Of a stretch of 64,000 bases of DNA, positions 23,840 through 34,286 are shown piece after piece; the first letter of the stretch is position 1, and the number at the start of each line of letters is the position of its first letter. Position numbers and translations under genes: made by a program. This stretch comes from Rhodohalobacter sp. SW132 (GTDB taxonomy: Bacteria; Bacteroidota; Rhodothermia; Balneolales; Balneolaceae), in assembly GCF_003390325.1 (NCBI RefSeq), contig NZ_QUOK01000006.1:124001-188000 (forward strand). The letters run 5' to 3'. The notes under the pieces are model-generated. The model ran no database searches. It was not told where the DNA came from and worked only from the letters and a program-made list of their open reading frames with translations.

Positions 23840-23868
23840 GGGGTAGGCCACCCATTCAACTGTAGAAT
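23840..23868 (+). promoter_or_regulatory. Predicted ECF-sigma promoter of the poly-Asp lipoprotein gene
   Basis: GGGGTA (23840-23845), 16 bases, then GTAGAAT (23862-23868), 37 bases before the ATG at 23906. The -35 word and the 16-base spacing match three other sites in this block; the -10 word differs in its second half. The sequence CTACCCC at 23881-23887 forms an inverted match to the -35 region and could be incidental. Confidence 0.65.
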
Positions 23869-23905
23869 AGGTACATACACTACCCCAAAACAAAAAACAA
23901 AAACT

Positions 23906-24631
23906 ATGAAGAAGCAAATATACACAATCTTAAATCTGGTTCTGATATCCACAATCCTATTTGTGGGTTGCGATATCATGCAATCAAGTACAGACGCCCC
24001 TTCTGAAGTTCAGATTCGAATGCAGGTTAATGCAACCACATCCTCATCTGCGGCCAAACAGATGATGGGTTTGAACCAGGAAGAGGGAATTGTCATTGAA
24101 GAGGTTAAACTTTTCATTGAAGAGATGGAGCTCGAGAGCATTCAAAACGATTCTCTCGACTTCGAAATTGAAAACTTTATCGTAAACCTTCCGCTTGATG
24201 GTTCTCCGCTGATCATCACGGAAAGGGAAATACCGGCCGGACTTTATGATGAGTTTGAACTTGAAATCGAAAAACCAGATGACGACGATATTGTAGTTAA
24301 CGACCCCGATTTTCGTGATGAAACCGGTAGTTATTCCCTGGTGGTAAAGGGTTTATATAACGGCGAGGAATTCACTTTCCGCTCATCCGAAGATTTTGAA
24401 ATCGATATCGATCTGAATCCACCGCTTGAAATCTCTGAGTCCGGAAATTCTGTACTCGTTGTTTCAATTGACGTAAACAGTTGGTTTAAAGGCGATAATG
24501 GTGAAGATCTTGACCCTAAAGATTTTCAAAATACGGAACGAATCAACGAAAACATCGAGCACTCATTTGAAGGATTTGAAGAGATGTTTGACGATGATGA
24601 CGATGACGATGATGATGATGATGATGATTAA
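23906..24631 (+). CDS. Acidic lipoprotein with a C-terminal poly-aspartate tail (DUF4382-like)
   Basis: A 241-aa secreted lipoprotein: signal peptide MKKQIYTILNLVLISTILFV, lipobox Cys22 (LFVGC). The body has an amino-terminal beta-strand/Glu-rich region (QEEG, VIEEVK, FIEEMELES at about residues 57-79), then ITEREIPAGLYDEFELEIEK, a strand pattern like DUF4382 proteins of Bacteroidota, though I hold that match loosely. It ends in an unbroken run of 13 Asp, coded by a GAT/GAC microsatellite. Cation binding is a plausible guess. A predicted ECF promoter precedes it and a terminator follows. It is next to a gamma-carboxylase homologue read from the same promoter type. Confidence 0.75.
   Translation: MKKQIYTILNLVLISTILFVGCDIMQSSTDAPSEVQIRMQVNATTSSSAAKQMMGLNQEEGIVIEEVKLFIEEMELESIQNDSLDFEIENFIVNLPLDGSPLIITEREIPAGLYDEFELEIEKPDDDDIVVNDPDFRDETGSYSLVVKGLYNGEEFTFRSSEDFEIDIDLNPPLEISESGNSVLVVSIDVNSWFKGDNGEDLDPKDFQNTERINENIEHSFEGFEEMFDDDDDDDDDDDDD
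24588..24630 (+). repeat. GAT/GAC trinucleotide microsatellite coding poly-Asp
   Basis: About 14 consecutive GAT or GAC codons end the lipoprotein gene; the last six are pure GAT. Replication slippage would change the tail length by whole Asp residues without shifting frame until the TAA at the end. Confidence 0.85.
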
Positions 24632-24662
24632 TCCTTCAGATGTATAATACCCTAAACCAAAA

Positions 24663-24694
24663 AAAGCCTGTCCCAAAATGTGACGGGCTTTTCT
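24663..24694 (+). terminator. Rho-independent terminator after the poly-Asp lipoprotein gene
   Basis: A 10-bp stem AAAGCCTGTC / GACGGGCTTT with one G-T pair, a short A-rich loop, and TTTTCT after it. It lies about 30 bases after the stop codon and directly before the next predicted ECF promoter, so the two genes are probably separate transcripts. Confidence 0.85.
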
Positions 24695-24698
24695 ATTA

Positions 24699-24727
24699 GG
24701 GGTAATCCGGGAGTATGATTGTACTAT
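24699..24727 (+). promoter_or_regulatory. Predicted ECF-sigma promoter of the gamma-carboxylase-like gene
   Basis: GGGGTA (24699-24704), 16 bases, GTACTAT (24721-24727), 33 bases before the ATG at 24761. It agrees with the consensus built from the sites at 23840, 31815 and 34258. Confidence 0.75.
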
Positions 24728-24760
24728 AATTGAAATGGTTTTCTATATGAATTCAATACT

Positions 24761-26227
24761 ATGTTTCACTATAAAAAATGGATTTCGCGGCTAAATCAAC
24801 CGGTTCACGCCGGCAGCCTGGCAGCATTCCGAATTTTGTTCGGCCTTGTAATGCTTTGGGAGGTTTACAGATATTTCGACAGGGGCTGGATTGAACGCTA
24901 TTGGGTAGATCCCGTTTTCAATTTTAAGTATGAGTGGTTTGAATGGGTCCATCCCCTATCTGCCGATGGGATGACGTTGCTGTTTTACCTGCTTGGTATT
25001 CTTTCAGTTACCATAACCATCGGTCTCTTTTACAGAGTCAGCGCAACGCTGTTTTTCCTGATTTTCACCTACACATTTCTCCTGGAACAGGCCCGCTATC
25101 TCAACCACTTTTATCTCGTTATCCTCATCAGTTTTCTGATGGCAATATTACCAGCTCATCGCGGATATTCAGTTGACGCCTGGCTTTTCCCGAAACTTCG
25201 AAAAGCAGTTGTTCCGTTCTGGACGGTTTGTCTGATGCAGTTTCAGATTGGAATCGTCTACTTTTTTGGAGGAATTGCCAAACTGAATGCTGACTGGATC
25301 ACCGGATCGCCCATGGACGCCTGGCTTCCACGAAGATCCGATTTCCCCGGAGTGGGTGAGTATTTTGCAGTACCGGAGGTTGTATTCTTTATAAGTTATT
25401 CCGGTCTGCTGCTTGATCTTTTAGCACTGCCGCTTCTGCTCTACCGCAAAACACGACCCTATATGGCTGCCGCTCTCGTGATGTTTCATCTCACCAATGA
25501 TCGGCTATTTACCATCGGCATTTTTCCGTGGTTCATGATTGCGGCCTTAACCATCTTTCTACCGCCCTCCTGGCCCCGTAACCTCAGAAACTATCTTACG
25601 CGGAAGTCTCTCAATCAAAAACTATTTCTCACGGCTATCGGCCTTGCGGGAGCTTTTGTAGGCATATGGTTTCATGAGGGATATAGCACTCTTCCATTCC
25701 TTACTGCTTTTATGATTACAATCGTGCTGGTTTGGGATTTTCATAAAAATCCGGCAGTGACAAAAGATTTGTTCAAAGAGCCTGTCGCTGGAAAAGTGGG
25801 TTCACTCGTTGTGGCCGGACTCTCTATTTGGATCTTGATTCAGCTTCTGGTGCCGATGCGCCATGTGGTTATACCCGGCAATCCGAGCTGGACCGAAGAA
25901 GGGCATCGGTTTGCCTGGCACATGAAACTGCGAAGTAAATCGTGCAATGAACAATTTTATGTTAAACATCGCGATACAGGCGAGAAAGTTGCCATACAAG
26001 GTATGCCGTTTCTTGAAAACTGGCAGCGGCGAAAGGTTTCAGCACGTCCCCAGTTGGTGATTCAATACGCTTCATTTCTCAGTGAAGTCAATCAAGGTCA
26101 GCCGGTGTATGCGGATATTGAGTGTTCACTGAATGGCGCATCCCACAGGCAGCTGGTTGATCCTGATGTGGATTTAACCGGGGTTGAATTCAGGGATTGG
26201 AAGAAGAATGACTGGATTTTAAGGTAG
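24761..26227 (+). CDS. Vitamin K-dependent gamma-glutamyl carboxylase homologue (HTTM family)
   Basis: A 488-aa membrane enzyme candidate with several helices in the N-terminal 300 residues and a soluble beta-rich C-terminus. It aligns by eye to animal GGCX over its whole length: NHFYLVILISFLMA (H116, matching human His160), YSVDAW, IVYFFGGIAKLNADW (K174, matching catalytic Lys218), the LDLLALPLLL helix, NDRLFTIGIFPW, WHMKLRSKS, and RQLVDPDVDLTGVEFRDW near the end. The 58-residue spacing between the two key residues equals that of the human enzyme. GGCX turns Glu into gamma-carboxyglutamate using reduced vitamin K; whether this bacterial protein does so is unproven. It has its own predicted ECF promoter. 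Confidence 0.85.
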   Translation: MFHYKKWISRLNQPVHAGSLAAFRILFGLVMLWEVYRYFDRGWIERYWVDPVFNFKYEWFEWVHPLSADGMTLLFYLLGILSVTITIGLFYRVSATLFFLIFTYTFLLEQARYLNHFYLVILISFLMAILPAHRGYSVDAWLFPKLRKAVVPFWTVCLMQFQIGIVYFFGGIAKLNADWITGSPMDAWLPRRSDFPGVGEYFAVPEVVFFISYSGLLLDLLALPLLLYRKTRPYMAAALVMFHLTNDRLFTIGIFPWFMIAALTIFLPPSWPRNLRNYLTRKSLNQKLFLTAIGLAGAFVGIWFHEGYSTLPFLTAFMITIVLVWDFHKNPAVTKDLFKEPVAGKVGSLVVAGLSIWILIQLLVPMRHVVIPGNPSWTEEGHRFAWHMKLRSKSCNEQFYVKHRDTGEKVAIQGMPFLENWQRRKVSARPQLVIQYASFLSEVNQGQPVYADIECSLNGASHRQLVDPDVDLTGVEFRDWKKNDWILR

Positions 26228-26300
26228 TAAATTGAATTTGAAGCCTCAGTTTGAGCTCAGAAGTTGAATATTAAACATATCCCTTAGAGATATTGTGGAT

Positions 26301-26400
26301 TTCACCACGAGGACACGAGGACTCGAAGGTTCACGAAGATCAACCTTTTGATTCTGTTATACTTAGTGAAGTCTCGTGACTTTGTACCTTCGGGGTAAAA
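26301..26400. repeat. Degenerate CACGAGGA-type octamer repeat
   Basis: In the 274-base gap between the two convergent genes, CACGAGGA repeats twice followed by CTCGAAGG and TTCACGAAG. About 50 bases later GTCTCGTGA...ACCTTCGG gives partial inverted matches. This style of CACGAAGA-like intergenic repeat is common in Bacteroidota-type genomes. No clean terminator is seen in the gap. Confidence 0.5.
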
Positions 26401-26501
26401 GTATACGGCTGATATTTTTTATCATGTATTTCCTCTCAATCTTTCGAAGGCGGACACTTCTGAAATAGTTCCTACATCGAAATCAGCATAAAATAGAACA
26501 C

Positions 26502-29177
26502 TCAAAAAGTATACTTCACGCTAAAGGATGGCTGAAATCCGAGGTCCAGAACATCCACCGGGAGGGGACGAAGGCGGGGAATGGAACGGGTCTCATCAAA
26601 ACTGAACGCGTAATTCCGGTACCAGACGTTATCACGGTTTAGGAGATTGAAGACTGAGAAACTGACCTCAAGACTCGATGTATTCTGAAACTGATGATGA
26701 TACTCAATCGTTGAATCGAGGCGGTAGTAGGCATCGAGACGCTCTTCTGTATCATTTCCGAATGAAGCCAGGGAATTTGGAGCTCCACTCATCATCACCC
26801 AAGACAAGTACATTTTTAGTTGATCGCTGAACGCGGTTTCGAGCACTGCGCTGTATGTGTGAGTTCTGTCCCACTCGGCAAAAAACTCTTCTCCATCCAA
26901 CAGTTCAGGATTGCTGAAGACCATTCGCGACAAGGTATAACTTTGCGTTAGTGAAAAACGACTAAACCGATTGCGCAGAATCATCTCAACTCCCTTCGCA
27001 TCACCATTATTTTGAGTAAACCAGGGTGCTCCCAGAAAAGTATTTTCAAGGGTTTGGGTATTCAGTTCGTGAATTCTGAGGTCTTCGTACGTTTTCAGGT
27101 AAGCTTCTACTTTCAGATATACGGACGGATCAGGAATAAACTCAATTCCTGCAGAAAACTGCTCCGATGAAGCGGGAGGCTGCTCATCCGTGGAGAGAAT
27201 CCAGACGTCAGCTGTAGTCGCATTTTCGAGAGAAATCCGGTGTAAAAATTGATGGTTTACAGAGTATCCGCCAAAAAAGGCCACTGATGAAACCGGTGAA
27301 AATCGAGCCTGCAAGCGCGGTGCAAATAAAAACCGATCACCCGAACTATAATAATAGCTGCGAATTCCTGCATTCAGTTGCAGCTGGTTAATTGGATTCC
27401 ACTCGGTTTGAAGATAGAGATCCGCAAGATGTGCGTTGGTTTCGGTAAAGAAGGCAGGCCGGTCGAATGAAGATTCACTGTACTCTCCCCGGTAATATCG
27501 CCAGGTACCACCGAGAATTACGGATGCACTCCTGCCTTTAAATTCAACATCCTGATTTATCTTCAGTTCATTCATCGAACTGCGATTTCTGAACGGATAG
27601 GTAAAGATAGAAACTGATTCGTTGCCCGATTCGAACGATATCCTGCTGTAAACAAAATCACCCTTTTCGAACTCTGTTTCATAGGAGCTGAACCCCGCAG
27701 TGGTTGAGCTGTAAATTGAATTGAACAGCTCCCGTTCGTATTTGATACTGAATAGTGCATTTCCCCACAAATTTGAGGTCTCTACCTGCTGAAATGTAAA
27801 CTCCCCTTCGCTGCCTGCCGATCTTGTTCTTCGGCCGGCTTGTTGTGATGTTCGGTCTCCGCCAAAATATCCGCTCAGAATGAATCGTCCGGCATTTGAC
27901 GTTTCGTGGTACAATTTTGCATGCAGATCCAAAAACTCTGCACTTGCATCACCAGGCTGCAGCACCAGGTCGGTAAAATCGGGCTCATCGGACGCAACCC
28001 GCCTCGGACGATCAATATCAAGGCCCCACTGAACCAGGTTGGAGTTGTTGAACCAGGTCAACTGATCCATATAGGAAGTTCTGGCAGATAGCAGCCAGCT
28101 GCTGCGTTCTCCGATAGGCCCTTCAAGTGTACCATTTATAGCAGTATTGCTGATACCAATACTGCTTCGGAACTCATTAAGTGAACCGGTTCGGGTAATC
28201 AGGTTGAGCGTGCCGCCGGTCGGGGTGTCGATATTGGCCGGAGTAATTCCAAAGTAGTAACCGGATGACTGTATCGCATCCGAATTAAAACTATCGAGTA
28301 GTCCAAACAGGTGACTTTGGTTAAAGATGCTCATCCCGTCGAGAATCACCAGAAATCCGTCTGGAGTGCTTCCCCTTACATTTAGTCCGTTGTTCAGAGC
28401 GGTACCTTTCGATACAGATGGATGCGCCTGCAGTGCCCGTATGGTATTTGACTCCCCGAGAGGACTAAACCTTCCGGCGTCGATCATTCCGGTGAGCAGA
28501 GTATCGGATGGATTGGAGCCGGTGAATCCCGCCACGATGATTTCATTGCTTCGTATGGTCTCCGGTTCAAGACGCACGGTGATATCAGCAATCCGGTTCG
28601 ATGAAGTAAGATCTATCTGAACATCCCGTTCTCTATATCCGATATAACTGACTGTCAGGTTCATGTTTGAACCCATCGTTCTGCTTCGAAGAGAAAATTG
28701 GCCGGATGCATTTGAGGCAACCCCTTTCAGATTCTCGACTTCATTCCATCTAACCGTTGCAAAAGGCAGACGTTCGCCCGAGGAAGCATCTACAACCTGA
28801 CCTGATACGTATACCGTTTTCGTTTGCGTCTGTGGCTGTTGAGGTTGAGGTTCTGGCTGCGAACGAATGAGTAAAACCTGGCCGCGTTCAAAATCCGCCT
28901 TTAAGTCAATATTATACTCCAGAAGAATCTGCTCCAGTTCGTCCAATATTTCCTCTTCACCCGTTTGCAGGGTAATTCTGATATCAGCAATTTGTGCTTC
29001 CCTGTAGAGGAAATAAAAGTCCGTTTCGGATTCAATTTGACGAATGACTTCCCTGAGCTGAGTGTCATTGAAAGAGAAATTAGCCAGTAATTGACCGGGA
29101 ATCAGTAAAACAAGAAAAGCACCCGGTAGGAATGCTTTTCTTAAAATTCGATATGAGGATAAAAAAAATTTCTGCAC
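26502..29177 (-). CDS. TonB-dependent receptor with N-terminal STN signalling domain
   Basis: An 891-aa outer-membrane receptor. After a signal peptide (cleavage near residue 32) comes a secretin/TonB N-terminal (STN) domain, about 33-110, which in FecA-type receptors contacts the anti-sigma FecR in the periplasm. Then a Gln/Pro-rich linker, a carboxypeptidase-regulatory-like domain (VYVSGQVVDASSGERLPFATV, about 126-210), a plug (VRGSTPDGFLVILDG) and a 22-strand barrel ending in FSVKYTF. The start is GTG at 29177, directly abutting the fecR TAA. The ligand is unknown; no transporter or siderophore gene is alongside. It ends the sigma-lipoprotein-fecR-receptor row. Confidence 0.9.
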   Translation of the reverse strand: MQKFFLSSYRILRKAFLPGAFLVLLIPGQLLANFSFNDTQLREVIRQIESETDFYFLYREAQIADIRITLQTGEEEILDELEQILLEYNIDLKADFERGQVLLIRSQPEPQPQQPQTQTKTVYVSGQVVDASSGERLPFATVRWNEVENLKGVASNASGQFSLRSRTMGSNMNLTVSYIGYRERDVQIDLTSSNRIADITVRLEPETIRSNEIIVAGFTGSNPSDTLLTGMIDAGRFSPLGESNTIRALQAHPSVSKGTALNNGLNVRGSTPDGFLVILDGMSIFNQSHLFGLLDSFNSDAIQSSGYYFGITPANIDTPTGGTLNLITRTGSLNEFRSSIGISNTAINGTLEGPIGERSSWLLSARTSYMDQLTWFNNSNLVQWGLDIDRPRRVASDEPDFTDLVLQPGDASAEFLDLHAKLYHETSNAGRFILSGYFGGDRTSQQAGRRTRSAGSEGEFTFQQVETSNLWGNALFSIKYERELFNSIYSSTTAGFSSYETEFEKGDFVYSRISFESGNESVSIFTYPFRNRSSMNELKINQDVEFKGRSASVILGGTWRYYRGEYSESSFDRPAFFTETNAHLADLYLQTEWNPINQLQLNAGIRSYYYSSGDRFLFAPRLQARFSPVSSVAFFGGYSVNHQFLHRISLENATTADVWILSTDEQPPASSEQFSAGIEFIPDPSVYLKVEAYLKTYEDLRIHELNTQTLENTFLGAPWFTQNNGDAKGVEMILRNRFSRFSLTQSYTLSRMVFSNPELLDGEEFFAEWDRTHTYSAVLETAFSDQLKMYLSWVMMSGAPNSLASFGNDTEERLDAYYRLDSTIEYHHQFQNTSSLEVSFSVFNLLNRDNVWYRNYAFSFDETRSIPRLRPLPVDVLDLGFQPSFSVKYTF

Positions 29178-30161
29178 TTACGGTAGCGGTCTGAATTGAT
29201 AGGTTTGATCATCAACTTGAATAAACTCACCACCAAGAACCGTGCCGAGATCCTGCAGAGATTGCTCCGGGGTTTCAAGAGCAACAGATCCGCCGAGAGC
29301 AATTTGTTCTGATTCATCATCAACACGAATGGTAATATTGTAGTGAAACTCCAGTTCAGACACAATTTCTGCCACCGGCCTGTCGCGGAATATAAGCCTG
29401 CTTTCAGTCCATCCTGTGATCTCTTCAGGCTCAAACGTGAACGGTTCGTCAAGAGTATAATCGGAACGGATGGCGGCCCCTTCTCCGGCATTCAGGCTTA
29501 TGGACCTTGTCATGTCAGCCGTTTCAAAAATCACCGAGCCTTCCAGCAGGTGAATGGTTGACCGTTCATCACGGTCGGATAGATTGAACCTTGTGCCTGT
29601 AACCACTACCCGGCCGGGGCCTGCTTCAACAGAAAATGTTCTGTCTTGATTAGATTCTACCTCAAAAAGTGCTTCTCCGTTCAGTGAGTAGCTCTGCAGA
29701 TGATCCGTTGAAGTAACTTCATAAAGCCTTGAATTTGGACGAAGGGTCACGCTGCTCCCGTCGGCCAGTTCAACAACAGAAATCGCTGAGCCCGATTCAG
29801 CTAAGAGTTGAGGCGCCGGATCTACCGCATGACGGAGCAAAAACAGAGATCCGAAGGCGATCAAAACAACAGCAGCGGCAGCCCAATACCATCTCTTCGC
29901 TGAAGAAATTGGCCGGATGACAGCCCGATCTGTTTCACTATCCCCGTTGATATTTCTCTCAATCTGTTGCCAGGAGCTATCCGCTGAACCCAAAGGAATG
30001 TCCGCCTCAGACTCATTCGCTGCATCTCTTGCCTGAACCAGCATTCTGAACATCGGATCTTGGATATCCTGAATTTCTTGCTCACCGGTCAGTACCTTTC
30101 CGTACTGCCTGGCAAGTTTCAGATCAGGGTCATTGTCCGGTATGTTTTTTAAATCAGCCAT
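29178..30161 (-). CDS. FecR-family anti-sigma factor / sigma regulator
   Basis: A 327-aa inner-membrane regulator. The first 85 residues would be the cytoplasmic sigma-binding part, residues 91-109 a single membrane helix (WYWAAAAVVLIAFGSLFLL), then the periplasmic FecR domain (about 118-220, with ELADGSSVTLRPNSRLYE and VVVTGTRFNLS) and a DUF4974-like C-terminal domain (about 250-325), whose fold matches the receptor STN domain it would meet. It lies between the DUF5666 lipoprotein (8 bases) and the receptor (0 bases). It probably relays receptor occupancy to the ECF sigma factor at 31860. Confidence 0.92.
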   Translation of the reverse strand: MADLKNIPDNDPDLKLARQYGKVLTGEQEIQDIQDPMFRMLVQARDAANESEADIPLGSADSSWQQIERNINGDSETDRAVIRPISSAKRWYWAAAAVVLIAFGSLFLLRHAVDPAPQLLAESGSAISVVELADGSSVTLRPNSRLYEVTSTDHLQSYSLNGEALFEVESNQDRTFSVEAGPGRVVVTGTRFNLSDRDERSTIHLLEGSVIFETADMTRSISLNAGEGAAIRSDYTLDEPFTFEPEEITGWTESRLIFRDRPVAEIVSELEFHYNITIRVDDESEQIALGGSVALETPEQSLQDLGTVLGGEFIQVDDQTYQFRPLP

Positions 30162-30169
30162 TCATCTAA

Positions 30170-31783
30170 TTAATCAAAAAATTCCACCTCAATCGCAATC
30201 CAGAAGCCGGTTAAAGGGTCATAATAAAACTCACCTTCTGCTCCCACTTCCTCCCCGTCATCCAGGGCTTCTGCCACTTCTTCGAGTGTAAAGAAATCTC
30301 CATCGTCGTCAATCAAGGTGTTTTCTGTAATTTGAACAACCTTTCCATCTTCGAGAGTGAAAGTATTTTCTTCAATGTTTACTGAGATGATATGCTCGTC
30401 AAATTCATCGAAGTCGAATTCAAATTCCACTTCCTTCACGATGCGGTTACCGGTTTCAATATCAATATAAAAATCACCTTCCGCTTCAACCGGCATACCT
30501 GCCTCAACAGCTTCAGCAACTTCCTGAAGTGAACTCAGATCATCTTCAAACTCTATCTCACTCTGGTCCGTCAAAGTAAATTGGTCACCATTTACCAGTG
30601 TAAATGTGTTTTCGGTAAGATTCACTGAGGCTACGAGACCTTCAAATTCATTCGATTCCAGTTCAAACTCAACTTCAGTAGCAATCCAGAGATTCACATT
30701 TTCATCCGGATGAACATAATCACCCTCCGCTGTCACCCGTACGCCGTTTTCAACCGCGAGAGCGACTTCTTCAAGAGTACGAAAATCTTCAACATCGATC
30801 TCCGTTTGTTCATTGATTTGAATTCTTTGTCCGTTGGCAATGGTAAAAATTTGATCTTCAATATCTACTTTAGTGACTCTGCCCTCAAACTCATCCTCAT
30901 CAAAAACCTCGCCGTTTGCAAGCCTGAGTCTGAAGGTGTCGAACTGCTCCCGGAATTTCAGCAGCGCTGTTCCATCGCCGTTCAATTCTACAGTTCCGTT
31001 CACAATCTTGGTTTCCTGCCCATCACTTCCGTTATTCGTTTGACGGATCGTATTTTCATAACTAAAAGCCCCATTCACACCGCTTCGAAAATTGCGGTTT
31101 CTGAGTACAACAGGTTTGTTGATTTGGATATTGAGATAATTGAGGTCGAGAATATATTCCCGTTCAAGCTGAGTTCCATCCATTCGAATTTGTGTAAAAA
31201 GTCCCTCTCCGGAGTGATATCCGTCAATGGATAAAATATCTGCAGACTCGGAAATTCCGTCGATAAACAGCCTGTCGGTCCGGGTGTAGATAGATCGCTT
31301 GGATGAAGTTTCTATTTCACCATTGCGTACTGCCCTGAAATCAACGGCTTCAATTTCTTCATTCTGATTATTCGGGAATTCAAGAGTCTCACCGTCAGAA
31401 TCAAGAAATCTGTAGTTCAATGAATAATCGGTTTGTGTGCTGATACCCTCAGATATTGATTGCTTTGTAAACGTTGCGGAATGATCTCCTGTCTCAGGGT
31501 CAAAACTGTACGTATAGTTTTCAATATTCCTGAAACTTCCGGTTACAATGGCGGAGGGACCGTCGGTAAGTCCGGATGGAGTGGTAATGGCAAAAGCTTC
31601 CGAAAAACTTGAAAGAAGGCCACTCTGGTTTTCTGAAATAGATTCTCCGACAATCTGCCCCGTAATGAGCGATTCTTCTGTTGATAGTGAGCTATCAGTT
31701 TGATCATATCCATCTACCGAACAAGCCTGCAACAGGATTTGTGCGCCAACGATGATCAGAGTTACTATTAATCTGTATTTCAT
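30170..31783 (-). CDS. Lipoprotein with three tandem DUF5666-like repeats
   Basis: A 537-aa lipoprotein with lipobox Cys21 (LLQAC). Residues about 22-300 form an N-terminal region with no match I recognise. The C-terminal 235 residues are three ~78-residue repeats (about 302-379, 380-457, 461-537), each running V-x-(I/L)-x-(E/N)xxFT(I/L)xxG, then a Q(I/L)(T/N)(E/D)(Q/N)(T/S) strand, then LEEVAxAVExG and VxAEGxxYxD...(A/V)xEVEFE. This matches the small beta-barrel DUF5666 fold. The protein is very acidic. It is transcribed from a predicted ECF promoter and precedes fecR, so it is likely part of the signalling or uptake unit rather than a bystander. Confidence 0.75.
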   Translation of the reverse strand: MKYRLIVTLIIVGAQILLQACSVDGYDQTDSSLSTEESLITGQIVGESISENQSGLLSSFSEAFAITTPSGLTDGPSAIVTGSFRNIENYTYSFDPETGDHSATFTKQSISEGISTQTDYSLNYRFLDSDGETLEFPNNQNEEIEAVDFRAVRNGEIETSSKRSIYTRTDRLFIDGISESADILSIDGYHSGEGLFTQIRMDGTQLEREYILDLNYLNIQINKPVVLRNRNFRSGVNGAFSYENTIRQTNNGSDGQETKIVNGTVELNGDGTALLKFREQFDTFRLRLANGEVFDEDEFEGRVTKVDIEDQIFTIANGQRIQINEQTEIDVEDFRTLEEVALAVENGVRVTAEGDYVHPDENVNLWIATEVEFELESNEFEGLVASVNLTENTFTLVNGDQFTLTDQSEIEFEDDLSSLQEVAEAVEAGMPVEAEGDFYIDIETGNRIVKEVEFEFDFDEFDEHIISVNIEENTFTLEDGKVVQITENTLIDDDGDFFTLEEVAEALDDGEEVGAEGEFYYDPLTGFWIAIEVEFFD

Positions 31784-31814
31784 GGATATTCAGCTATAAG
31801 AGAGTCCGTTTTCT

Positions 31815-31843
31815 GTAGTACAGCTAAGGGCATGTCCTACCCC
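31815..31843 (-). promoter_or_regulatory. Predicted ECF-sigma promoter of the DUF5666 lipoprotein-fecR-receptor operon
   Basis: On the minus strand: GGGGTA (31843-31838), 16 bases, GTACTAC (31821-31815), 31 bases before the ATG at 31783. The -35 word lies 17 bases after the sigma gene stop. It is nearly a copy of the site at 34258-34286: identical -35 and -10 words and spacing, plus matching bases around them. Confidence 0.8.
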
Positions 31844-31859
31844 CAATCAATTAGCCGGG

Positions 31860-32462
31860 TTATTTTAAAAAACGGTCCGATAATTCTTTACCGTATACAT
31901 CAACCAAGGCTGTCCGCATGTCCTTAAATGCAAGAGCCATGTGATTTTCAACAGTTTTAACACTCACATCCATAGTTTCTGCGGTCTCCTTGTAGGTAAA
32001 CTGTTTCATAAAACAGAACTCAAACACCATGCCTCTTTTTTCAGGCATGGAAGCAATAATTCTTTTTATATGAGCTACCAGTTCTGCATAATCGGTATCC
32101 GTCTCTGGATTCTTCACACTTATATCTTCTTCCGGAGGATCATCGTCTTTAAATTTAGAATGATAATCAACATGATTGAGCATGCGGGAGTATGCAATCT
32201 GAAAAAGATAAGCACGGAGCGATTTGGTCTCGTCAATTCCGGAACGTTTATCCCATATCATCACAAACGCTTTCTGCACCAGGTCTTCAGCCTCATCATG
32301 GCTCATTCCCCGGCTTCGCATAAACCGATAAAGAGCCGGGTAGTGTTTATCAAAAAATGCCCTGAACGCTTTTTGATCACCGTTTTTGATGCTGATTGAT
32401 AGCTGTACATCATCCAGTGAGGAGCTTTTTGACAGGGCAAAGAAAAGCAGTAAAAATTCCAA
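31860..32462 (-). CDS. ECF RNA polymerase sigma factor (FecI/RpoE type)
   Basis: A 200-aa ECF sigma factor: region 2 at about 22-95 (NGDQKAFRAFFDKHYPALYRF, EAEDLVQKAFVMIWDKR, AYLFQIAYSRMLNH) and region 4 at about 130-190 with the helix-turn-helix FTYKETAETMDVSVKTVENHM. It is expected to be held by the FecR protein encoded two genes later and to read the GGGGTA-N16-GTA promoters of this block. The start is uncertain: the frame is closed by a TGA just upstream and the first candidate is TTG at 32462. An ATG at 32478 opens a separate 22-codon frame that overlaps the sigma N-terminus and ends at 32410. Confidence 0.88.
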   Translation of the reverse strand: MEFLLLFFALSKSSSLDDVQLSISIKNGDQKAFRAFFDKHYPALYRFMRSRGMSHDEAEDLVQKAFVMIWDKRSGIDETKSLRAYLFQIAYSRMLNHVDYHSKFKDDDPPEEDISVKNPETDTDYAELVAHIKRIIASMPEKRGMVFEFCFMKQFTYKETAETMDVSVKTVENHMALAFKDMRTALVDVYGKELSDRFLK

Positions 32463-32534
32463 ATCCGAGTGCTTTCATTAATTTCGTATAATCAGGATTA
32501 ACTTACCGCGATATAACCTAAATGAAAAGCATCA

Positions 32535-33662
32535 CTATTTCTGAGATACCCCTGAATATATCGTACGTGCAGGAATAATTTCCATACCCGTAAGGCGATC
32601 CGGTTCATGTTCGCGGGCATTCACGACATCGCGAATAATTATTTTCTTTACCTGCTCAGGATACCGCTCTCTCATGGCCGAATAAATTTCAGGGTCCTTC
32701 TCGCCGGAATCGCCAACGAGTATAAACCGGCGCTCTGGAAACCTCTCTAAAAGTGTGGTTATTTGTCCTGTTTTTTGATTTTTGGTCACATTTTTGCCAA
32801 ACAATAACTTACCGAAATCGGCCCATGTCCCGGGGTTAAAAAAACTTTTTCTTACCGTTTTCATATGAAATGAACCTTTTGGATACAAACTCTCTCTTTC
32901 CACATCAAACAGAAAGGATGTGATCGGGTCATATAGCTGCCAGGGAGCGCCGGATACATAATGGAATGCAGCGTTATTTTCTTTCCAGATATCGTACAGA
33001 CTATACATTCCGGGTGCAGCCTCAAAATCTTTAAAAAATGTATTTCGAATCACCACATCAGAACCGGCAGGAAGTTCCGTTACTTTAATCGTGTCATCAA
33101 TATCCGAGATTACCGAAACACCTTCAGGTTCCAGTAATTGAATTTTTCCGTTCCCATCGTGAAGGTTCGAAACCGCCTGAATATCCAGCCAGTTATCCGT
33201 TGTTTGTTGATAGTGTAAAAGCGAATCGGCCCGACTGACCGGAATCCGGATATACCCCTCTTTTAATCCATCAAAATCCGTTCTCAGCACCTTTCCGTTT
33301 TTGTTTTTAATTCGATAGGCTCTGTTTTCCGGGTCTTTTGCAAACACAAATTCCACAACTTCCCTCCATTCTCCATCCGCAACAAAATCGTCAGCTCTTG
33401 TTTTGAAAAGCTCTTTTTCATAGTCGTTCAATCCGTATCTTCTGGCTGCAAAAGAAGCTGCAACTCCCTTGGTTCTGTTTCTTTGGCGGTGAACAAATAC
33501 ACGCATGGGAATCACCCACTCATCTCCCTGCTGAAAACCGTATGTAGTATAAAAAAGAACTTCTTTTTGATTTTGCTGCGATACCAGTGACTGTACAGTC
33601 GTGCAGCCTGAGGTTATCATAAACATCAAGCATATAAAAATCAGTAGTTTACTTTTCATCAC
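32535..33662 (-). CDS. Lipoprotein with App1-type phosphatase domain (DUF2183)
   Basis: A 375-aa lipoprotein (lipobox Cys20, ITSGC). The C-terminal two thirds form an App1-like HAD phosphatase domain, named for the yeast phosphatidate phosphatase App1: nucleophile motif D187-I-D189-D190-T191, FHYVSGAPWQLYDPI, FHMKTVRKSFFNPGTW, and FILVGDSGEKDPEIY as the acidic motif. A secreted, membrane-anchored form would work on the periplasmic face, perhaps on phospholipids; substrate is inference. It lies 72 bases upstream of the sigma gene and 77 bases after the receiver gene, all in one direction, so the three may be one transcript. Confidence 0.85.
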   Translation of the reverse strand: MMKSKLLIFICLMFMITSGCTTVQSLVSQQNQKEVLFYTTYGFQQGDEWVIPMRVFVHRQRNRTKGVAASFAARRYGLNDYEKELFKTRADDFVADGEWREVVEFVFAKDPENRAYRIKNKNGKVLRTDFDGLKEGYIRIPVSRADSLLHYQQTTDNWLDIQAVSNLHDGNGKIQLLEPEGVSVISDIDDTIKVTELPAGSDVVIRNTFFKDFEAAPGMYSLYDIWKENNAAFHYVSGAPWQLYDPITSFLFDVERESLYPKGSFHMKTVRKSFFNPGTWADFGKLLFGKNVTKNQKTGQITTLLERFPERRFILVGDSGEKDPEIYSAMRERYPEQVKKIIIRDVVNAREHEPDRLTGMEIIPARTIYSGVSQK

Positions 33663-33739
33663 ACACGTATAATGTTGTCAATCGTGAAATCTGAATTCTC
33701 AATTTCCTTAAACTGTATTACCGGGATGTAATGGCTTCA

Positions 33740-34102
33740 TTAATTGTAGCTGCCAGTTAAGGGAATACACTTTTTAAGTCTGCCTAATGACACTGGTTTG
33801 GAAATGAAATCGTGAAAACCTATTTCTTCAGCCCTGTTTTTTGTCTGGTGATCAGAGTTCCCCGTAACGTAAACGATAATCGGGTTATACACTTTTTTTA
33901 TCTCTCTGGCCACGCAAATACCGTCAAAACTATCCGTTAACATAATATCCAGAAATACAATCGCTGGCTTTTTCTCAATGATTTGAGTTACAGCTTTATT
34001 CCCGTTCTCTTGCATTCCAACAAGTTGGAGCCCAAGCTTGTTGAGTAACATTTTAAGCACCAAACATTGGATTGCGTTATCCTCTACAATAAATGCAGTC
34101 AT
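33740..34102 (-). CDS. Stand-alone response regulator receiver protein
   Basis: A 120-aa single-domain CheY-like receiver. Acidic pocket E7-D8, phosphoacceptor D52 (VFLDIML), Thr at about 80 and conserved K102 (FISKPVS). There is no output domain and no histidine kinase in the window, so it must act through another protein. It is the first gene after the predicted ECF promoter at 34258 on the minus strand, upstream of the App1 lipoprotein and the sigma factor. Confidence 0.9.
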   Translation of the reverse strand: MTAFIVEDNAIQCLVLKMLLNKLGLQLVGMQENGNKAVTQIIEKKPAIVFLDIMLTDSFDGICVAREIKKVYNPIIVYVTGNSDHQTKNRAEEIGFHDFISKPVSLGRLKKCIPLTGSYN

Positions 34103-34257
34103 AAAAAAGCTTTTTTTAAGTTAGCAGAACAACCAATTTAGATTCACCGCCTTCAGTTATTTCTGACGTTCAGCCGCTGTATCGTTCGTGTACTAAATGG
34201 CATTTTAATAATGACAAAACACCAAAATTCATATCAAATTTTCAGGTTCATTCGTAC

Positions 34258-34286
34258 GTAGTACAGATAATTACCTGTCTTACCCC
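34258..34286 (-). promoter_or_regulatory. Predicted ECF-sigma promoter upstream of the receiver-App1-sigma genes
   Basis: Minus strand: GGGGTA (34286-34281), 16 bases, GTACTAC (34264-34258), 156 bases before the receiver ATG at 34102. If the receiver, App1 and sigma genes form one transcript, this gives sigma autoregulation. The long leader is unusual compared with the other three sites (31-37 bases). Confidence 0.7.

Follow-up and report, generated by a model that had tools for sequence, protein, structure and literature searches.

The 64,000-nucleotide stretch of Rhodohalobacter sp. SW132 DNA analysed here (the window) carries four copies of a short two-part word within a 10.4-kb block, and the question is whether these are promoters and, if so, which sigma factor reads them. 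The original prediction was that GGGGTA, followed after exactly 16 bases by GTA, marks a local regulon of an extracytoplasmic function (ECF) sigma factor. A pattern count located all four sites where they had been proposed, each with exactly that spacing, against 0.16 matches expected in the window; none of 100 shuffled sequences reached four. The words in the −10 position are GTAGAAT (23840), GTACTAT (24699), GTACTAC (31843, minus strand) and GTACTAC (34286, minus strand), the set originally listed, although in a different order along the map. The start codon follows 31–37 nt after the end of sites 1–3; for site 4 the distance to the receiver gene is 155 nt. On the sequence evidence set out below, we consider it highly probable that GGGGTA and YTGTANWAY are the −35 and −10 elements with which promoters are recognised by the ECF sigma factor whose gene lies at 31860–32462, and that this factor has a surface-signalling regulon (Table 1).

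Table 1. Putative promoters and genes of the block (coordinates refer to the window).
Feature	Coordinates	Strand	Basis and remarks
Site 1, putative ECF promoter, GGGGTA-N15-TGTAGAAT	23840–23868	+	Exact motif; upstream of DUF4382-like lipoprotein gene
DUF4382-like lipoprotein with 13-Asp tail	23906–24631	+	PF14321 at 23 bits, just below the cut-off of 25; lipobox-like VGC read from the sequence
Intrinsic terminator between DUF4382 gene and site 2	24662–24692	+	Hairpin of −15.4 kcal/mol, z −5.3, then T-rich tail
Site 2, putative ECF promoter	24699–24727	+	Exact motif; upstream of HTTM gene
HTTM and vitamin-K-dependent gamma-carboxylase lumenal-domain protein	24761–26227	+	PF05090, E 2e-91; PF22777, E 8e-37
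TonB-dependent receptor with N-terminal STN-like signalling domain	26502–29177	−	CarbopepD_reg, weak Plug; STN-like by predicted fold
FecR-type sigma regulator	29178–30161	−	PF04773, E 2e-15; PF16344
DUF5666 lipoprotein, first gene of the operon	30170–31783	−	PF18914, E 8e-10; position shared by most orthologous loci
Site 3, putative ECF promoter of DUF5666-fecR-receptor operon	31815–31843	−	Exact motif
ECF sigma factor, TTG start, hydrophobic N-terminus MEFLLLFFALSK	31860–32462	−	PF04542/PF08281; TIGR02985 score of 125.5 bits (cut-off 126.4); orthologs
APP1 phosphatidate-phosphatase-like lipoprotein	32535–33662	−	PF09949, E 1e-40
Single-domain response-regulator receiver	33740–34102	−	PF00072, E 9e-19
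Site 4, putative ECF promoter	34258–34286	−	Exact motif; upstream of receiver-APP1-sigma

Could the four words be alike by chance within a local block? GGGGTA alone is as frequent in the window as chance predicts (18 versus 16.8 expected), and pattern searches of the 5.08-Mb genome found 20 copies of the bare N16 motif, 16 of them elsewhere. Those 16, however, predict only about 0.03 copies within 10.4 kb, where four are found. The strict form GGGGTA-N14-YTGTANWAY has four perfect copies in the genome, all of them these sites, a uniqueness that is partly post hoc because the form was fitted to the same four sites; relatives provide the independent test. Chance is contradicted by the lack of any other strict copy, by conservation of the sites at orthologous positions and by the co-occurrence of motif and sigma orthologs, both described below, and is almost certainly not the explanation. 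The genome-wide scan for clustering that the original prediction had called for singles out this block. Ten one-mismatch copies of the strict form also occur in the genome; most lie within a long open reading frame and none has the look of a good promoter, and the idea of further strong sites elsewhere in the genome was rejected. Around site 1, GGGGTA is opposed by TACCCC on the other strand at 23881–23886, an inverted pair spanning 23840–23886 that may be fortuitous.

Pfam searches bore out the gene identities anticipated downstream of the sites (DUF4382-like, HTTM with a gamma-carboxylase lumenal domain, DUF5666, FecR, receiver, APP1 and ECF sigma), and the sigma gene is, as had been stated, the only one of its kind in the window: a single gene there encodes sigma region 4, among 36 matches in the genome, 34 of them above the cut-off. 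The strong terminator hairpin ahead of site 2 is in keeping with the HTTM gene having a promoter of its own. The HTTM/gamma-carboxylase gene adjoins a gene for an Asp/Glu-rich lipoprotein, and the same pair is adjacent in two loci of relatives (L111 and L115). In these two loci the APP1 gene (L111:2884-3996, nearest relative) and the HTTM gene (L115:3028-4476) are each represented by two open reading frames, reflecting broken genes or assembly errors.

The sigma factor contains only sigma regions 2 and 4 (PF04542 and PF08281) in 200 residues, the hallmark of ECF factors, and it has fold matches to sigma E, SigW, SigK and CnrH as well as profile matches. The FecR-family regulator expected of a surface-signalling system is likewise present, with PF04773 and PF16344 above their cut-offs, and is kept in orthologous loci. 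For the receptor, the Pfam STN model gave no match in ten receptors, so the N-terminus was examined by fold. The structure model of residues 29–119 (pLDDT 87) matches the signalling domains of FpvA (Z 8.8), FoxA (8.8), PupA (8.6) and FecA (8.2); secretin N0 domains score equally, because the fold is common to N0 and signalling domains. A search of PDB sequences with a profile of the STN region returned chance matches only. An STN-domain receptor of the FecI-FecR-FecA kind is therefore indicated by the modelled fold, and not by Pfam. Because this STN-like fold occurs together with FecR, the predicted proteins constitute a FecI-FecR-FecA-type surface-signalling module.

If the sites are promoters of such a module, they should be retained in relatives, and a comparison of the same regions, as the original prediction had proposed, shows that some are. 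Orthologs of the sigma factor (∼40–80% identity) are present in about half of 92 family genomes, and the named genomes that carry one belong almost all to Balneolales or Rhodothermales. In most orthologous loci the gene order is sigma, DUF5666, fecR and receptor. When the stretch from the sigma stop codon to just past the DUF5666 start was searched in each locus, a GGGGTA-N14/15-TGTANTA-like site with at most two mismatches was found in 56 of 59 distinct loci, whereas ∼2.5% of random stretches from the same loci reached this level; the loci share descent and are not fully independent. The sites lie mostly ∼10 nt past the sigma stop and 30–50 nt ahead of DUF5666. In five loci (L120, L122, L124, L125 and L126) sigma and the operon are set apart by a gene or a gap; there the site is found near DUF5666 and not near sigma, as expected of a promoter. 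Site 3 is, by this comparison of sequences, the most conserved of the four. Among DUF4382 genes in the loci of relatives, 12 of 13 have a site upstream (null 5%). Four genomes (G044, G045, G048 and G069) each encode two sigma orthologs, one 54–79% and the other 44–48% identical to that of the window, which suggests two paralogous sigma lines.

Across the 42 sites that were aligned, GGGG and TGTA are invariant and the spacing is 14 or 15, an invariance partly due to construction because the sites were chosen by motif match. The base preceding TGTA tracks the spacing: C accompanies 15, and G accompanies 14 or, less often, 15. A palindromic GGGGTACCCC lies at the −35 position in some relatives (L104, L107 and L116), as it might in an operator, so that the sites could be targets of a DNA-binding regulator, or a leader RNA element, and not promoters read by a sigma factor. 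This palindrome is not general, though, and the four sites of the window lack it; no dedicated DNA-binding regulator gene common to the loci was seen. An ECF promoter would account for two blocks spaced by 14–15 nt that lie 30–50 nt ahead of starts in a sigma-FecR locus, and we judge the operator or RNA reading very unlikely.

Granted that the sites are promoters, they might serve another ECF factor, with the sigma gene of the window merely a member of that regulon. The genome has enough region-4 proteins to supply such a reader, and the sigma gene itself lies downstream of site 4. The distribution of the motif argues otherwise. Of 45 genomes with an ortholog of this particular sigma factor, 34 contain GGGGTA-N13/14-STGTANTA (65 matches), as against 4 of 45 without one (4 matches); the count leaves out two genomes in which the sigma match was partial. 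The associated Fisher P of ∼9e-11 is nominal, as the genomes are related. A reversed-pattern control gave 24 and 27 matches in genomes with and without an ortholog, respectively. In orthologous loci, moreover, it is this sigma gene that adjoins the sites, and no other ECF sigma gene lies beside those of the window. Control by a different ECF factor is thus unlikely, and we retain the sigma factor encoded at the locus as the reader of the sites.

The motif also points to targets far from the sigma gene. Twenty sites in relatives were picked by eye as strong, most of them distant from the sigma gene and one cut by a contig end. In 14 of the 19 intact cases a gene begins within ∼110 nt downstream (45–110 nt for distal sites) whose product, judged by a signal-peptide-like start, is apparently exported. 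The genes found there encode DUF4382-like proteins (two, in L221 and L222, named by eye because Pfam gave no score), the diheme peroxidase CCP_MauG, CotH kinase, YHYH protein and PD40 propellers. Sites ahead of CCP_MauG, CotH, YHYH and PD40 lipoprotein genes (L213, L224, L226, L229, L223 and L215) would make for a wider regulon than that of the present genome. Some distal matches (L212, L220, L228 and L230) are away from gene starts.

The comparison was less favourable to two parts of the proposed regulon. None of the three relatives that have the HTTM gene carries a site upstream of it. A site directly upstream of sigma was found for 2 of 66 orthologs, which equals the null level, and general autoregulation of the sigma factor through such a site was rejected. 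In this genome, autoregulation through site 4 and the receiver-APP1-sigma genes is nevertheless probable from the sequence; the nearest relative has a one-mismatch site ahead of its APP1-sigma genes (L111:2813), and in two further loci (L092 and L106) a site is followed by DUF4382 and sigma. Because an upstream site is known only from these cases, autoregulation is apparently a trait of certain lineages. The local regulon of the original prediction therefore holds up in its core, with conserved sites at the sigma/DUF5666 junction and at DUF4382 and with co-occurrence of motif and sigma factor, while the HTTM site finds no counterpart in the three relatives with that gene and autoregulation is not general.

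The system shares with FecI-FecR-FecA systems (E. coli fec; Pseudomonas fpv, fox and pup) an ECF sigma factor, a FecR-family regulator and a TonB-dependent receptor with an STN-like domain, and a receptor gene driven by the sigma factor, a feature of those systems, is proposed here too. It differs in the DUF5666 lipoprotein gene placed between sigma and fecR, in the predicted location of fecR within the sigma-dependent operon, in several further (lipoprotein) targets, in the probable autoregulation of sigma and in the GGGGTA/TGTA promoter. The fecIR genes of E. coli lack autoregulation, and FecI acts at a single promoter (PMC9249621). The present block departs from this narrow pattern, with four exact sites of which one lies upstream of the sigma operon and one upstream of the fecR operon; absent autoregulation and a single promoter are a trait of E. 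coli fec and do not define all surface-signalling systems.

A second comparison is with the Bacteroidota ECF factors of the TIGR02985 type (Sig70_bacteroi1), where the sigma factor has relatives at 31–37% identity, often likewise followed by fecR and a receptor gene. In this outgroup, by contrast, a GGGGTA site after sigma occurs only at the null level, no DUF5666 gene was found and the hydrophobic N-terminus is mostly missing. As for the promoters themselves, canonical ECF promoters have AAC in the −35 and CGT in the −10 element (PMC8103513). The sites described here are also composed of two short elements ∼16 nt apart, but have no AAC at −35 and carry TGTA in place of CGT at −10; with GGGGTA and TGTANTA in the 42 aligned sites, they fall outside the canonical class.

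Taken together, the data are consistent with a circuit in which the outer-membrane receptor would bind a ligand and its STN domain would signal through FecR, activating the sigma factor. The latter would transcribe the DUF5666-fecR-receptor operon, a positive feedback on its own sensor, as well as the gene for the Asp-rich DUF4382 lipoprotein and, in this species, the HTTM/gamma-carboxylase gene; through site 4 it would transcribe its own operon. The overall theme is a guess; most likely, the cell surface would be remodelled when the receptor takes up a substrate or metal complex.

The N-terminus of the sigma factor may add a further level of control. A hydrophobic stretch of ∼10–14 residues (window 32427–32462, minus strand) is present in all ∼60 distinct orthologs, whereas the next-nearest Bacteroidota ECF factors mostly lack it and start ∼9 residues before region 2.1. 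Starts of the orthologs were called mechanically, and the stretch is nonetheless conserved in frame. The AlphaFold model has an N-terminal helix with pLDDT of about 46–57, and because these values are low it speaks neither for nor against a membrane anchor. It is possible, if doubtful, that in this Balneolales/Rhodothermales clade the hydrophobic N-terminus tethers the sigma factor to the inner membrane or to the cytoplasmic part of FecR, so that membrane release, and not only anti-sigma binding, would gate the GGGGTA/TGTA lipoprotein regulon. If the N-terminus proves to be a membrane anchor, this would be an unusual way to control a sigma factor.

Literature searches on Balneolaceae sigma factors, DUF5666, DUF4382 and CotH with YHYH found nothing on this system. 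For a bacterial group in which no such study was found in the literature searched, our results would supply the promoter code and a defined set of targets of a surface-signalling sigma factor, and the sites appear specific enough for target prediction across genomes. They would also link proteins of unknown function (DUF4382, DUF5666 and YHYH), together with lipoproteins of the CotH and MauG families, to one signal.
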